In this document: piece after piece, positions 2,898 to 20,127 of the stretch
Layout: every line of letters begins with the position of its first letter
Numbering within the stretch: the first letter of the stretch is position 1
Translations under genes and position numbers: made by a program
The notes under the pieces: generated by a model
The model's database searches: none
The model's input: only the letters and a program-made list of their open reading frames with translations
Told to the model about the DNA's origin: nothing
Origin: a virus
IMG/VR virus record: IMGVR_UViG_3300044530_002207
Location: 1-20,668 of that record
Strand: one strand, 5' to 3'
Length of the DNA: 20,668 nt

Positions 2898-4014
2898 CTG
2901 GTATGCCCTCACTCCTAAGCCCTCGGTCAGCGAAACCGAAATCTCCATTTTCGACGAGATCGGTATGTATGGCATCAGCGCCAAGCAATTCATCACCGAC
3001 CTCAAGGCCATCCCCGCCACCGACAAGATCGTCCTCAAGATCCACTCCCCAGGCGGAGAAGTCTTCGACGGCAACGCCATTTTCAACGCCTTGCAGCGTC
3101 GCGGCAACGTAGAGGTCCAGATCGAAGGCCTCGCCGCCAGCATGGCCACCGTCATCTCCCTCGCCGGTATGCCAGTCAAGATGGCCGCCAATGGATTTTA
3201 CATGATTCATAATCCCTGGGGCGTTGCCATGGGAGACGCCGCCGAGCTCCGCGACCAAGCCGAGTTGCTCGACAAGATCCGGTCCAACATGGTCGGAGCC
3301 TATGCCGCCAAGAGCGGACAAGACCCCGAGCAGATCCAAGAGTGGATGGACTCCGAGACATGGTTCACCGCCGCCGAAGCCCTCTCCGCCGGATTCATAG
3401 ACGAGATCACCGACACCCTATCCCTCGCCGCCTCCTCCAATAAATTCGCCAGAATGGCGAAATTCAAAAACGCCCCCGCCAATTTGACAGCCCAGCCACA
3501 TCGTATGGAAATAGAAATCACACCCGAGCCCGAGATCGTCGAAGAAGTCATCGCCGATAGCATCGTCAGCGACTCCGTTCCCGCCGAAGAGATCGAGATC
3601 ATCGAAGAGATCGCGCCCGCCGACCAAGTCGAAGTCGCACCAGATGCAACACCCCAGCCCATTGTCAGCCCCGTATCCCTCGCCGCCGCCGATTCGATCT
3701 TGGCAAAATACAACGCCATCTTAGCCGAGCGCGACTCCGCCATCCTCGCCCTCCAAGCCTACTCCGCCAAAGTGGAGACCCTCCGCGACGAGCTCAACGA
3801 AGAGCGCGAATCCTTCGCCCGCCTCGAGCGCAGCCTCGGCCTCTCCGCCGCCCGCGTCGTTCCCATCATTTCCAATGCCGCACCGGAAGCCCTCGACCCC
3901 GTCGCCGAGTATCTCGCCGCCGTAGAGTCCGGCGACCGCCGAGCCGCATCCGCCCTTTTTGAGAAGCACAAAGCTCTCATCTGGCAAGCACGCCAAAAAA
4001 TTTCCAAAGCCTAA
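2890..4014 (+). CDS. Head maturation protease (ClpP-like, S14) fused to scaffold
   Basis: 374 residues. The frame is open back to 2845, but ATG 2890 is preferred because TTTGACA stands 15 nt before it and the sequence matches the family from M-R-N-W-Y. Residues 1-180 form a ClpP-like serine protease: I-H-S-P-G-G (51-56), catalytic Ser84 in L-A-A-S-M-A, His107 in M-I-H-N-P-W-G, and the third triad position near D154/E156 in M-D-S-E-T-W, followed by A-E-A-L-S-A-G-F-I-D-E-I. These proteases cut the scaffold and themselves during prohead maturation. Residues about 206-300 are very Glu/Ile/Val-rich and low complexity; 300-374 form a coiled-coil helix and then a helical end, as expected for a scaffold. 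The lambda gpC/Nu3 arrangement is the parallel. Confidence 0.88.
   Translation: MRNWYALTPKPSVSETEISIFDEIGMYGISAKQFITDLKAIPATDKIVLKIHSPGGEVFDGNAIFNALQRRGNVEVQIEGLAASMATVISLAGMPVKMAANGFYMIHNPWGVAMGDAAELRDQAELLDKIRSNMVGAYAAKSGQDPEQIQEWMDSETWFTAAEALSAGFIDEITDTLSLAASSNKFARMAKFKNAPANLTAQPHRMEIEITPEPEIVEEVIADSIVSDSVPAEEIEIIEEIAPADQVEVAPDATPQPIVSPVSLAAADSILAKYNAILAERDSAILALQAYSAKVETLRDELNEERESFARLERSLGLSAARVVPIISNAAPEALDPVAEYLAAVESGDRRAASALFEKHKALIWQARQKISKA
3483..3489 (+). promoter_or_regulatory. TTTGACA motif, 15 nt before internal scaffold start
   Basis: A perfect TTTGACA inside the protease coding sequence, 15 nt before an in-frame ATG at 3505. It is the only TTTGACA internal to a long gene in the window with an in-frame ATG at that distance, which supports a nested start. 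Confidence 0.55.
3505..4014 (+). CDS. Scaffold protein from internal start within the protease gene
   Basis: ATG 3505 is codon 206 of the protease frame and gives a 169-residue protein that is only the scaffold part. In lambda, Nu3 scaffold is made from an internal start in gene C and shares its C-terminus; this layout is the same. The start falls at the domain boundary, just after the protease domain and a short linker. The product begins with an acidic region of E-I-E-I-T-P-E-P-E-I-V-E-E-V type (1-60). A coiled coil with heptad-like leucines follows (about 85-125), then a basic, Ala-rich helical tail likely to contact capsid protein. The exact start needs protein data. Confidence 0.6.
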   Translation: MEIEITPEPEIVEEVIADSIVSDSVPAEEIEIIEEIAPADQVEVAPDATPQPIVSPVSLAAADSILAKYNAILAERDSAILALQAYSAKVETLRDELNEERESFARLERSLGLSAARVVPIISNAAPEALDPVAEYLAAVESGDRRAASALFEKHKALIWQARQKISKA

Positions 4015-17491: not shown

Positions 17492-17736
17492 GACCCCGCC
17501 GGATCGCGCTGTTGATGGTCCTCTTGTCATTTGTATTCCTCGGCATGGCCTTTTTGACCAGTTGCGTCAACGTGCCGATCCCGCCCTTCGGTGAGCGCAT
17601 CGGCGAGCTCGGAAACCTCCAACTCGCCCTATCCGCAAAATACATTCCCAACACGCCACCCGAATCCCCAGGCGAAAACGGAATGGCATTCGCCTGGTCA
17701 AAATACGGCGAAGCCAAACTCCTCCGCGACAAATGA
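17488..17736 (+). CDS. Small lipoprotein, candidate outer spanin (Rz1-like)
   Basis: 82 residues. Basic start (M-R-P-R-R), a hydrophobic stretch, and a lipobox L-T-S-C with C26, then V-P-I-P-P-F. The mature part of about 57 residues is rich in Pro/Gly (N-T-P-P-E-S-P-G-E-N-G). Outer-spanin lipoproteins are short and Pro-rich and work with an inner spanin, here perhaps 17041, to fuse membranes at lysis. It overlaps its neighbours by ATGA on both sides. An ordinary phage lipoprotein, for instance in superinfection exclusion, is the alternative. Confidence 0.6.
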   Translation: MRPRRIALLMVLLSFVFLGMAFLTSCVNVPIPPFGERIGELGNLQLALSAKYIPNTPPESPGENGMAFAWSKYGEAKLLRDK

Positions 17737-18212
17737 ACCTCGACGAACGCAGCGAGCGCAACCTCTCGACCCTCCACCCGGATCTGTACGCCCGCGCCGC
17801 CTCTTTTATGCTTGCGGCCAAAAAGCTCGCCGCGCCGCTCAACCTAGACGTCAAGTGCATCTGTGGCCTTCGCACATGGGCCGAGCAGGACGCCCTCTAC
17901 GCCAAAGGCCGCACCACGCCCGGCCCTAGGGTCAGTAACGCCGCCGGTGGCGCCTCCATGCATAACTACTCGCTGGCCCTCGATATCGCCGTATTTTCCA
18001 AAGACGGCAAGACCTACCACGGCGACCACCCATTCTACCGCGAACTCGGACCCCTCGGCGAATCCCTCGGATTCGAGTGGGGAGGCCGTTGGAAATTCAA
18101 CGACGAGCCCCACTACCAACTCCGGCCGAAGTGGGCGACCGGCATGACCGAGCGCGACATGCTCGCCACCCTCCGCTCCCGCGTCGCAAAAAAAATCGAC
18201 GTTCTGGCGTAG
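17733..18212 (+). CDS. Endolysin, M15-type peptidase
   Basis: 159 residues. Zinc ligands H77 and D84 lie in S-M-H-N-Y-S-L-A-L-D-I-A, and H127 in D-E-P-H-Y-Q. D124 or E125 is the likely catalytic acid. G-L-R-T-W-A-E-Q-D-A-L-Y-A-K-G-R-T-T-P-G (45-64) is the conserved motif upstream of the first ligand. The M15C group (T5 and Listeria phage endolysins) cuts L-Ala-D-Glu or D-Ala-D-Ala type bonds in peptidoglycan. No signal peptide, so it needs a holin. Last gene of the late operon; its end faces a minus-strand gene. Confidence 0.9.
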   Translation: MNLDERSERNLSTLHPDLYARAASFMLAAKKLAAPLNLDVKCICGLRTWAEQDALYAKGRTTPGPRVSNAAGGASMHNYSLALDIAVFSKDGKTYHGDHPFYRELGPLGESLGFEWGGRWKFNDEPHYQLRPKWATGMTERDMLATLRSRVAKKIDVLA

Positions 18213-18220
18213 GGAAATCA

Positions 18221-18265
18221 ACTATCGTAAAGCGATAGTAAACAGCGCATTAGCCCCCCCCCCCC
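18221..18265. other. Hairpin and C12 run in convergent gap
   Basis: ACTATCG (18221-18227) and CGATAGT (18233-18239) form a 7-bp hairpin with a 5-nt loop, followed at 18254-18265 by twelve C. There is no T-run, so this is not a clean terminator. The 18213-18314 gap lies between convergent genes and shows no other gene. Confidence 0.5.
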
Positions 18266-18314
18266 ATCATGTCGGGGTCAGAGTCAGGGTGCGTAGAAAG
18301 GTCGATCACTTTTC

Positions 18315-18620
18315 CTATCCAGTCCTGCGGGATTTCCCCTTCTGGAGAGTTGATGGCCCACCACCGGAAATCTCGGATGGATTGATTGTTTTGGCACCAG
18401 CAACTTTGAACTTCGGCGCTTTCTTTACGGGCGCGGGTTTTTCTTTTGTTGCCGCGCTTGGCTTTACCACGTTCACCAAGTGAGTGGTGTCGTTGCGTAT
18501 CAGCATTTGAACGTATTCGGTGAGGCCTTTTAAGCGCTCTTGTTCGATGCGGATATTTGCGAGTCGATAGTAACTCTCAGGCATCGAGATAGATTTTTTT
18601 ACACACGGATCATTGGGCAT
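18315..18620 (-). CDS. Ribbon-helix-helix regulator with basic tail
   Basis: 101 residues from ATG 18620; a longer frame opens at 18683 but its extra residues look unlike the family. Residues 8-44 form an RHH fold: strand K-K-S-I-S-M-P, helix with R-L-A-N-I-R-I-E-Q-E-R, then L-T-E-Y-V-Q-M-L-I-R-N-D. The remaining 57 residues are Lys/Pro-rich and probably flexible (K-E-K-P-A-P-V-K-K-A-P-K-F-K-V). RHH dimers bind operators through the beta strand, as P22 Arc and Mnt do. It diverges from 18720, whose RHH is similar. A repressor role is inferred. Confidence 0.72.
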   Translation of the reverse strand: MPNDPCVKKSISMPESYYRLANIRIEQERLKGLTEYVQMLIRNDTTHLVNVVKPSAATKEKPAPVKKAPKFKVAGAKTINPSEISGGGPSTLQKGKSRRTG

Positions 18621-18673
18621 GCGGGACTTTCGCACTAGGTAAGAAAAAAAGCAACTTTTTCCCAAATAAGGTA

Positions 18674-18716
18674 TTGACCCCATGCCTTCTTTTTCCTACT
18701 TTTCGCGAAGAAGTAG
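18674..18716 (+). promoter_or_regulatory. Promoter overlapping palindromic operator before RHH gene
   Basis: TTGACC (18674-18679) is spaced 17 nt from TACTTT (18697-18702), a plausible sigma70 -35/-10 pair with a weak -10. CTACTT (18696-18701) and AAGTAG (18711-18716) flank the palindrome TTCGCGAA (18702-18709), offset by one G. An operator here would cover the -10 and lie directly before ATG 18720. A similar half-site, ACTTTCGC, lies near 18627 towards the minus gene. Confidence 0.5.
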
Positions 18717-18719
18717 CAA

Positions 18720-18890
18720 ATGAACCCACAACAAACCACCATCAAAAAATCAATCTCACTGCCCGCAGAGATGCTTGAAATGGCGCTCTGCAAGGCACGC
18801 GAGGAACACAGAACTCTCTCGAGTTACATCCAATCTCTCATCGCGAGAGACTTTGCAAAAAATAATTCAGACAAAGAAAATATTTTATGA
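18720..18890 (+). CDS. Small ribbon-helix-helix regulator
   Basis: 56 residues, too short for many gene callers. I-K-K-S-I-S-L-P-A-E-M (8-18) is the DNA-binding strand; helices follow, ending L-S-S-Y-I-Q-S-L-I-A-R-D. The fold matches the minus-strand RHH at 18315 (K-K-S-I-S-M-P, Y-V-Q-M-L-I-R-N-D), so they are paralogues. It overlaps the next start by ATGA (18887-18890). The promoter/operator lies immediately upstream. It probably controls itself and the divergent gene. Confidence 0.72.
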   Translation: MNPQQTTIKKSISLPAEMLEMALCKAREEHRTLSSYIQSLIARDFAKNNSDKENIL

Positions 18891-19006
18891 TCGACCTCTA
18901 CGACCCACAAACTATCTGCCGCAGCATCGGCTTTTTTTTAGACTTCCTCACCCTCACCGTGCCGGTGATCTCAATGGCATTCTTCGCCTGGAGGCTTGCA
19001 CGGTGA
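18887..19006 (+). CDS. Tiny membrane protein
   Basis: 39 residues. It overlaps the RHH gene (ATGA) and the next gene (GTGA). M-I-D-L-Y-D-P-Q is followed by one hydrophobic segment (about 12-36: I-G-F-F-L-D-F-L-T-L-T-V-P-V-I-S-M-A-F-F-A-W) and ends R-L-A-R. Its place in a chain of overlapping small genes supports it. Function unknown. Confidence 0.5.
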   Translation: MIDLYDPQTICRSIGFFLDFLTLTVPVISMAFFAWRLAR

Positions 19007-19215
19007 GCGCCGCCGACTGGGACGCAATCCTCGCCAATCGCGACAAGGCTGAGGCCCTTCCTGAGACCGACTGGACAACCGAGACACCGGAAACCGAGGC
19101 CGCCGTCAAGGCGTCCGGATCAACCTTCGGCATCCCCCTCCGCGAATGCAGCCGACGCCTCGAGCGCCAACGCAACGCCCTCCACGATCTGCTCGCAAGG
19201 AGGTCAGCAAAATGA
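19003..19215 (+). CDS. Small hypothetical protein
   Basis: 70 residues from GTG 19003, chosen because it overlaps the previous stop (GTGA) and the upstream open frame (to 18775) is a shadow of the RHH gene. Starts M-S-A-A-D-W-D-A-I-L-A-N-R, an acidic Thr/Glu middle, then a basic helical end (C-S-R-R-L-E-R-Q-R-N-A-L-H-D-L-L-A-R-R). Likely DNA- or protein-binding; no family recognised. Confidence 0.55.
   Translation: MSAADWDAILANRDKAEALPETDWTTETPETEAAVKASGSTFGIPLRECSRRLERQRNALHDLLARRSAK
19197..19204 (+). promoter_or_regulatory. Perfect Shine-Dalgarno AAGGAGGT
   Basis: AAGGAGGT lies 7 nt before ATG 19212. It is the only perfect SD I see, contrasting with the SD-less late genes that use TTTGACA or CA-rich leaders, and shows that the host can use SD. 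Confidence 0.8.
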
Positions 19216-19352
19216 GCGACACGACCGCAATCATCTCGGCCTGCCTTATCCTGATGTCGCTCTACACGACATTCCATCTCGGCATCGAGTGCGAACGCGA
19301 GCGCGCCCGCAAGGCCCGCCGCCGCCGGTATAACGAAGAAGACACCGAATAA
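19212..19352 (+). CDS. Tiny membrane protein with basic tail
   Basis: 46 residues; overlaps the previous stop by ATGA. One hydrophobic segment (about 5-20: T-A-I-I-S-A-C-L-I-L-M-S-L-Y-T-T), then a charged end (E-R-E-R-A-R-K-A-R-R-R-R-Y). A strong SD precedes it. A frame opening at 19146 is a shadow. Function unknown. Confidence 0.55.
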   Translation: MSDTTAIISACLILMSLYTTFHLGIECERERARKARRRRYNEEDTE

Positions 19353-19366
19353 CCCCACCAAAACCC

Positions 19367-19546
19367 ATGACTCTCACAGCTCACCTCTCCGCCGCCCGCC
19401 GCCACCTCGCCGCCGTCGAGCGCCTCACCCGCCGCCAATCTCCCCCGAAACCCCTCGCGCCCCCTCAACCACCCGAAGACCCCGCCACCCCCGAAGAGAT
19501 CCGCGAGGCCTTCCGCCAACTCCGCGCCCAACTCGCCCAAGATTGA
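19367..19546 (+). CDS. Small Arg/Pro-rich helical protein
   Basis: 59 residues. N-terminal helix (L-T-A-H-L-S-A-A-R-R-H-L-A-A-V-E-R-L-T-R-R), a Pro-rich linker (P-P-K-P-L-A-P-P-Q-P-P-E-D-P) and a C-terminal helix (P-E-E-I-R-E-A-F-R-Q-L-R-A-Q-L-A-Q-D). The leader is CCACCAAAACCC-ATG, with no SD. The next gene starts at once. Probably a small adaptor; family unknown. Confidence 0.5.
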   Translation: MTLTAHLSAARRHLAAVERLTRRQSPPKPLAPPQPPEDPATPEEIREAFRQLRAQLAQD

Positions 19547-19551
19547 TCTCT

Positions 19552-20127
19552 ATGAAGGAAACGCCTCAAGAAATCGAGCAAGACACCCTCCTCCGCAACT
19601 GGCTCGACGGCCTCGAGCCCCTCGATCGAGCGACCATCGAGGCCACCCTCACCCCCATCTCCGCCCTGTCCACCGTGGATGCCGAGTATCTGGAATCCTT
19701 CCCCGACCCCGACTCCGCCTTCGACGTGGACCGCCCCGAGTGGAAGCTCGCCGAAGATCTCCGCCTCGGTCTCGAGGAAGCCGAGCGGGTCCATGCCTGG
19801 CATCTCTCCACCATCGCCCGCGAGATCGAATGGGCCAAAGCCGAGCAGCTCAACCTCATCGTGAGCTTCCTCTGCAAGCCCACAAAAAACCTCCGCGCCC
19901 TGGTGCGTGGCCTCGCCCTCGCCACCGGCCTCGCCGAGCTCAACGGCACCCACAGCCAAGCCGAAGTCGCCCGAGAGCTCGGAGTCACCCGCGCCCTCAT
20001 GAGCTACTACGTCACCACATGGGCCGACCTCCTCAAAATCAACGTCTTTAAATTTCGCAAAGGCTCCAGCTCACGGGAGACCTACCGCGCCGCCGCAACC
20101 AAATCGTGGGCAAAAAGAAAGGCATAA
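19552..20127 (+). CDS. HTH protein, possible small terminase or regulator
   Basis: 191 residues from ATG 19552; a TTG at 19543 overlapping the previous stop could add three residues. The N-terminal two thirds are helical and acidic (E-Q-D-T-L-L-R-N-W-L-D-G-L-E, A-E-D-L-R-L-G-L-E-E-A-E). A helix-turn-helix lies at about residues 134-161 (S-Q-A-E-V-A-R-E-L-G-V-T-R-A-L-M-S-Y-Y). The C-terminus is basic. It could be a small terminase placed far from the large one, or an early regulator; the sequence does not decide. Confidence 0.6.
   Translation: MKETPQEIEQDTLLRNWLDGLEPLDRATIEATLTPISALSTVDAEYLESFPDPDSAFDVDRPEWKLAEDLRLGLEEAERVHAWHLSTIAREIEWAKAEQLNLIVSFLCKPTKNLRALVRGLALATGLAELNGTHSQAEVARELGVTRALMSYYVTTWADLLKINVFKFRKGSSSRETYRAAATKSWAKRKA

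Follow-up and report, generated by a model that had tools for sequence, protein, structure and literature searches.

A candidate immI-like switch of two divergent ribbon-helix-helix genes at the head of an early operon in a group of temperate tailed phages

The locus and its phage group

The window, by which we mean the whole stretch of DNA analysed, is the IMG/VR record IMGVR_UViG_3300044530_002207 (20,668 bases, positions 1 to 20,668). Its plus strand carries genes for a portal protein, a Clp-type head protease, a tail tape measure protein and an M15 endolysin; the endolysin gene is followed by a minus-strand gene for a ribbon-helix-helix (RHH) protein, a 99-bp gap, a plus-strand gene for a second RHH protein, and a run of small plus-strand genes (Table 1). 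The two proteins are called RHH- and RHH+ after their strands, and the genes diverge at the distance of about 100 bp described in the first-pass annotation. The start of RHH-, which lies in a mechanical ORF extending to 18683, was set at 18620 because six relatives can be aligned with the resulting 101-aa form over its whole length; with this start the candidate operators stay outside the gene.

Table 1. Features of the RHH locus and of a second pair in a related contig (positions refer to the window unless stated)
Feature	Position	Strand	Description
M15-type endolysin	17733..18212	+	Pfam PF13539, E=1.2e-11; phrog_2649; end of late genes, convergent with RHH-
Poly-C tract	18255-18266		between endolysin and RHH-
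RHH-	18315..18620	-	101 aa; RHH at residues 1-44, then 57-residue basic tail, predicted disordered
C-terminal motif of RHH-	18315-18380	-	GGxSST...K(T/I)G
Divergent control region	18621..18719		99 bp; nearly invariant in close relatives, alignable across lineages
O- (candidate)	18628..18646		inverted half-sites TTTCGCACT-A-GGTAAGAAA; presumed RHH- promoter; from alignment and half-site localisation
-10-like TACCTA, RHH- promoter (tentative)	18636..18641	-	inside O-; from sequence and alignment
-35 TTGGGA, RHH- promoter (possible)	18660-18665	-	from sequence and alignment
-35-like TTGACC, RHH+ promoter	18674..18679	+	identical in 12/12 aligned sequences
O+ (candidate)	18692..18720		inverted repeat TTTCCTACTT-TTCGCGAAG-AAGTAGCAAA (n9 centre); spans RHH+ -10, start site and start codon
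-10-like TACTTT, RHH+ promoter	18697..18702	+	17-nt spacer; inside left O+ half-site; weak sigma-70 match
RHH+	18720..18890	+	56 aa; Arc-like RHH protein; first gene of presumed early operon
Post-RHH+ genes	18887..20127	+	presumed early operon; similar order in L028, L029 and L031
39-aa membrane-like peptide	18887-19006	+	first ORF after RHH+
70-aa, 46-aa and 59-aa ORFs	within 18887..20127	+	after the 39-aa peptide, before the weak-HTH gene
191-194-aa weak-HTH protein	19543/19552-20127	+	after the small ORFs, in presumed early operon
Second, very diverged RHH/RHH pair (L049-L051)	34792-35049 and 35209-35379	- and +	contig G011 (IMG/VR 3300027746_000023), reverse complement

In the window, the small ORFs that follow RHH+ include no ant gene. 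The 39-aa peptide (MIDLYDPQTICRSIGFF...) is kept downstream of the switch in several lineages, and the 191-194-aa protein (19552-20127), in which the C-terminal half is nearly invariant and similarity to helix-turn-helix (HTH) proteins is weak, is a possible second regulator. Upstream, the poly-C tract varies in length among relatives, and one related contig (G004) begins and finishes near it. Two overlapping opposite-strand ORFs (3722-4006 and 3754-4011 in L028) lie between RHH+ and the antirepressor gene and are kept in L028 and L029.

Two related records, G005 and G009, of about 31.0 and 32.8 kb, have identical ends of 126 and 100 bp and are therefore probably complete. G005 encodes a tyrosine integrase, a primase, a DNA polymerase/primase-like replication protein and a GpA terminase. 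In all records that were oriented, the tyrosine integrase gene shares its strand with RHH-, and the early and late genes lie on the opposite strand. By terminase, the nearest named phage is Akkermansia phage Moulinsart (35% identity), so that a host from the Verrucomicrobiota is plausible, if unproven. Genome-contig scans with the 194-aa HTH protein and RHH+ returned no prophage copy, lysogen or named host; likewise, tblastn gave no matches for RHH+ and RHH- among INPHARED phages, or for the L031 RHH+ among phages and plasmids.

The RHH proteins and their conservation as a pair

The matching cores reported in the first-pass annotation belong to homologues, RHH- and RHH+ being 35% identical over 43 residues (E=1.8e-4 within the record). 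Positions common to both include K9, K10, S11, I12, S13, P15 and A22 and, further along, E29, L33, Y36, Q38, L40, I41 and D44. The basic tail noted on one of the two proteins is that of RHH-, whose 57 tail residues comprise 12 K/R versus 2 D/E. Several RHH- proteins with differing DNA-binding halves end in the same C-terminal motif (Table 1), which could be a degradation or partner-binding signal.

AlphaFold2 placed the two helices of an RHH in each protein, at residues 15-27 and 33-44 in RHH- with the tail unstructured, and the RHH+ model had a mean pLDDT of 82.9. The first eight matches of RHH+ in a PDB fold search were all P22 Arc, with probabilities of 0.99-1.00 though E values of only 0.07-0.2; its match to the Pfam Arc family was below cut-off. 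RHH- gave weak fold matches, including ParD and NikR, and no significant family assignment in Pfam, PHROGs or PDB sequence searches; the PDB sequence searches found no significant relative.

The pair is consistently maintained. A profile of RHH+ found 17 IMG/VR loci, all of which have the divergent RHH- gene, and the control region is nearly unchanged in close relatives, which keep both genes. Searches with the downstream 194-aa gene reached four loci, L028, L029, L031 and L041; all four carry the divergent pair, with RHH- proteins only about 22-35% identical. Additional diverged RHH pairs occur in L028 and G011. The second G011 pair adjoins another integrase on the same 57.5-kb contig, and its RHH- terminates in GGSSTATTDDFRKIG, an ending similar to those of other RHH- tails. 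This contig carries the endolysin gene in two copies of 94% identity.

Among L028, L029 and L031, DNA identity is low in the RHH- core (42-55%), control region (47-68%) and RHH+ (52-62%), and high in the RHH- tail (77-84%) and the downstream gene (91-96%). The DNA-binding parts and the operators thus appear to diverge together, a pattern like that of an immunity cassette. The beta-strands of RHH- and RHH+ are also alike within a phage (KKSIS/KKSIS, KRTVS/RRTIS, FIGFR/FVGFR), which suggests that the two proteins read similar sites. Permutation tests of this matching gave 9/720 and 19/5040, but the strands were aligned by eye and the result is not significant without L028 (9/120), so that the matching is suggestive only.

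Promoters and inverted half-sites

The proposed RHH+ promoter consists of TTGACC and, 17 nt further on, a -10-like element within the left arm of O+ that reads TACTTT, TACTAA or TACCAA depending on lineage; it was not reported by a scan for the sigma-70 consensus. Because the -10-like element lies within the left O+ arm, a protein bound at O+ should block RNA polymerase.

The palindrome that the first-pass annotation had placed over the -10 and beside the plus start is there, and its position is conserved in relatives. In the window alone the inverted repeat is not significant, its score being reached by 47 of 500 dinucleotide shuffles, but at the O+ position L031, L028 and L041 have perfect arms of 13, 13 and 14 bp, each with a score reached by 0/500 shuffles. 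The half-site originally read from the palindrome, ACTTTTCGC, was rejected: in the lineage comparison its CGCG part is spacer sequence that is not conserved. The conserved half-site that emerges from the lineage alignment is TTCNTACT, which occurs inverted at each promoter in most lineages. Accordingly O+ reads TTCCTACTT-n9-AAGTAGCAA in the window and TTCATACTT-n10-AAGTATGAA in L041. At the presumed RHH- promoter there is a second candidate operator, O-, that was absent from the first-pass annotation; L060/L068 have it in the perfect form TTTCATACT-G-AGTATGAAA, and the window in a degenerate form. Gaps between the RHH genes measure 99-112 bp in the TTCNTACT lineages.

Away from the two promoters TTCNTACT is nearly absent: all four copies in G012 and three of the four in G011 are inside the switch. 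The P values for these patterns describe localisation and are not independent tests, since the patterns were derived from the same regions. The clearest relative is L041, where the 24-kb G012 contig contains exactly four copies of TTCATACT, two per promoter. Both promoters of the second G011 pair carry two copies of a different half-site, T[GA]CTAC[CT]. Base 4 of the half-site is lineage-dependent, and in most lineages the arms have the same base there: it is C in both O+ arms of L031/L057 and A in all four half-sites of L041/L060/L068. Agreement is poorer in L029, where O- and the right O+ arm are degenerate, and in L028, which has no half-site common to its two promoters. The half-sites would act as operators; however, their centre spacing is 1-3 bp in O- versus about 8-13 bp in O+, so that one protein may not occupy both sites alike.

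Proposed function and relation to known systems

That the RHH pair is a conserved regulatory module is well supported. The first-pass annotation had gone further and proposed an RHH-based counterpart of cI/cro resembling P22 Arc/Mnt, and conservation of the pair and of operator position, the integrase, the Ant-type gene of two relatives and the Arc fold all argue for such a switch. We consider that the locus is probably an RHH/RHH switch of immI-like design that controls the early operon. As no CI/Cro-type regulator was found in nine records, it is probably also the main lysis-lysogeny switch of these uncultured temperate tailed phages.

We infer which protein binds which site, the direction of regulation and a role in lysogeny, as follows. 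RHH- and RHH+ are transcribed divergently from the common control region, and both probably bind inverted TTCNTACT half-sites, at O+ over the RHH+ -10 and start and at O- over the RHH- promoter. RHH- would be the lysogeny repressor, similar to Mnt or CI; by occupying O+ it would silence RHH+ together with the early lytic operon, and lysogeny and immunity would result. RHH+ would be an autorepressor of the lytic side, similar to Arc or Cro, made after infection or induction; it would act at O- to repress RHH- and, later, at O+ to repress its own promoter, leading to lytic commitment. Where relatives encode an Ant-type antirepressor in the RHH+ operon, that protein presumably relieves repression.

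A more far-reaching version, which we advance tentatively as having somewhat less than an even chance of being right, is that a whole lineage of tailed temperate phages of about 30 kb has no lysis-lysogeny switch other than a paralogous RHH pair, which competes for one set of half-sites and replaces CI/Cro in function. In this version the DNA-binding halves would be exchanged jointly with their operators, as an immunity cassette, with the RHH- tail retained in several lineages. A point against the proposed switch is that the early operon encodes the 191-194-aa HTH protein, which could itself have a regulatory role. For the study of how immunity specificity changes, the relatives would provide naturally varying repressors with matching operators, and a repressor of the RHH- type is a candidate to seek in phages annotated without a repressor.

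The pair might instead be an accessory module of the immI kind, controlling only an antirepressor or a small number of early genes, with lysogeny maintained by some other, unrecognised repressor, the part that C2 plays in P22. We regard this as rather unlikely. The P22 mnt-arc-ant module is indeed secondary to C2/Cro (PMC11016777), and the antirepressor genes downstream of RHH+ in L028 and L029 (Bro-N, 2.3e-22; phrog_130 Ant, 5.6e-48) imply a repressor target, possibly a protein other than RHH-; the 194-aa protein with its weak HTH is another point in favour. However, nine records, including G005 and G009, contain no CI/Cro-type HTH_3 domain above cut-off and no S24 repressor, and the leftover ORFs of G005 yielded no repressor family. 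Moreover, the pair is retained in the window group, in L031 and in L041 with no recognised antirepressor directly downstream, the RHH+ promoter heads the early operon, and the 194-aa gene is on the lytic strand.

It is very improbable that RHH+, RHH- or both are autoregulating toxin-antitoxin, copy-number or partition proteins with no switch function; of these possibilities the first-pass annotation had raised toxin-antitoxin and plasmid copy-control systems. RHH folds are common in antitoxins and CopG, and to the weak ParD and NikR matches of RHH- may be added weak HicB-like matches of RHH+ in relatives; but no toxin, partition or copy-control family was found among the neighbours of the pair, which are a conserved endolysin and early genes, and both divergent genes encode RHH proteins and are kept in every relative. 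Equally hard to credit is that the RHH+ inverted repeat folds into a hairpin in read-through mRNA and so conceals the start codon, rather than serving as a protein operator: the start codon is in or adjoins the right arm in L031 and L041, but RNA initiated at the promoter would lack the left arm, since that arm holds the -10-like element, and in the L041 group this half-site is found again at the other promoter.

A role for RHH proteins in lysogeny has some precedent. In SSV1 a small RHH protein, F55, alone maintains lysogeny by covering early promoters (PMC5569661); SSV1 differs in being an archaeal (Sulfolobus) virus with a single repressor and tandem rather than inverted sites. In Pf filamentous phages, PflM and Arc variants are Arc/Mnt-domain proteins linked to lysogeny, and some Pf prophages have Arc-family genes in place of repressor C (PMC7549136, PMC11112994), but these are single, longer proteins of filamentous phages and do not form a divergent pair with common operators. 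Our literature search, which covered few subscription papers, found no paper in which divergent RHH/RHH genes are described as the primary switch of a phage.

The lambda cI/cro region has divergent repressors, operators with a common half-site over both promoters, and an integrase on the repressor strand. The locus, with its candidate operators, resembles it in all three respects, and differs in that its proteins are RHH rather than HTH, with no S24 autocleavage domain, and in having one two-arm site per promoter where lambda has three. If the main decision is run by two RHH proteins, cI/cro logic would have evolved on a different fold.

Mnt and Arc of P22 are a textbook example of DNA recognition by a beta-sheet, yet they belong to an accessory immunity region. 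Like immI, the locus encodes a divergent pair of homologous RHH proteins, here candidate repressors, of which the minus-strand member is the longer and the plus-strand member the shorter (83 and 53 aa with a 90-bp gap in P22; 101 and 56 aa with 99 bp here). Sequence identity to Arc and Mnt is not significant, except between the L028 RHH- and Mnt (E 0.002, pairwise). Whereas ant follows arc in immI (PMC11016777), an Ant-type gene is downstream here only in L028 and L029 and not in the window. P22 immI is secondary to C2/Cro (PMC11016777, PMC8022706), a separate primary switch elsewhere in that phage; here C2/Cro was not found. The Arc and Mnt operators, moreover, are different sequences in the late region, while here a single half-site appears to serve the two promoters, and the early operon starts with the module. 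By sequence comparison, the locus does have the candidate operators overlapping divergent promoters that are typical of immI; because no CI/Cro-type region to which it would be subordinate was found, we call it immI-like rather than a member of immI. The divergent mnt/arc layout is thus common to P22 and this phage group, an Ant-type gene following in L028 and L029, while regulatory rank and operator design appear to differ.
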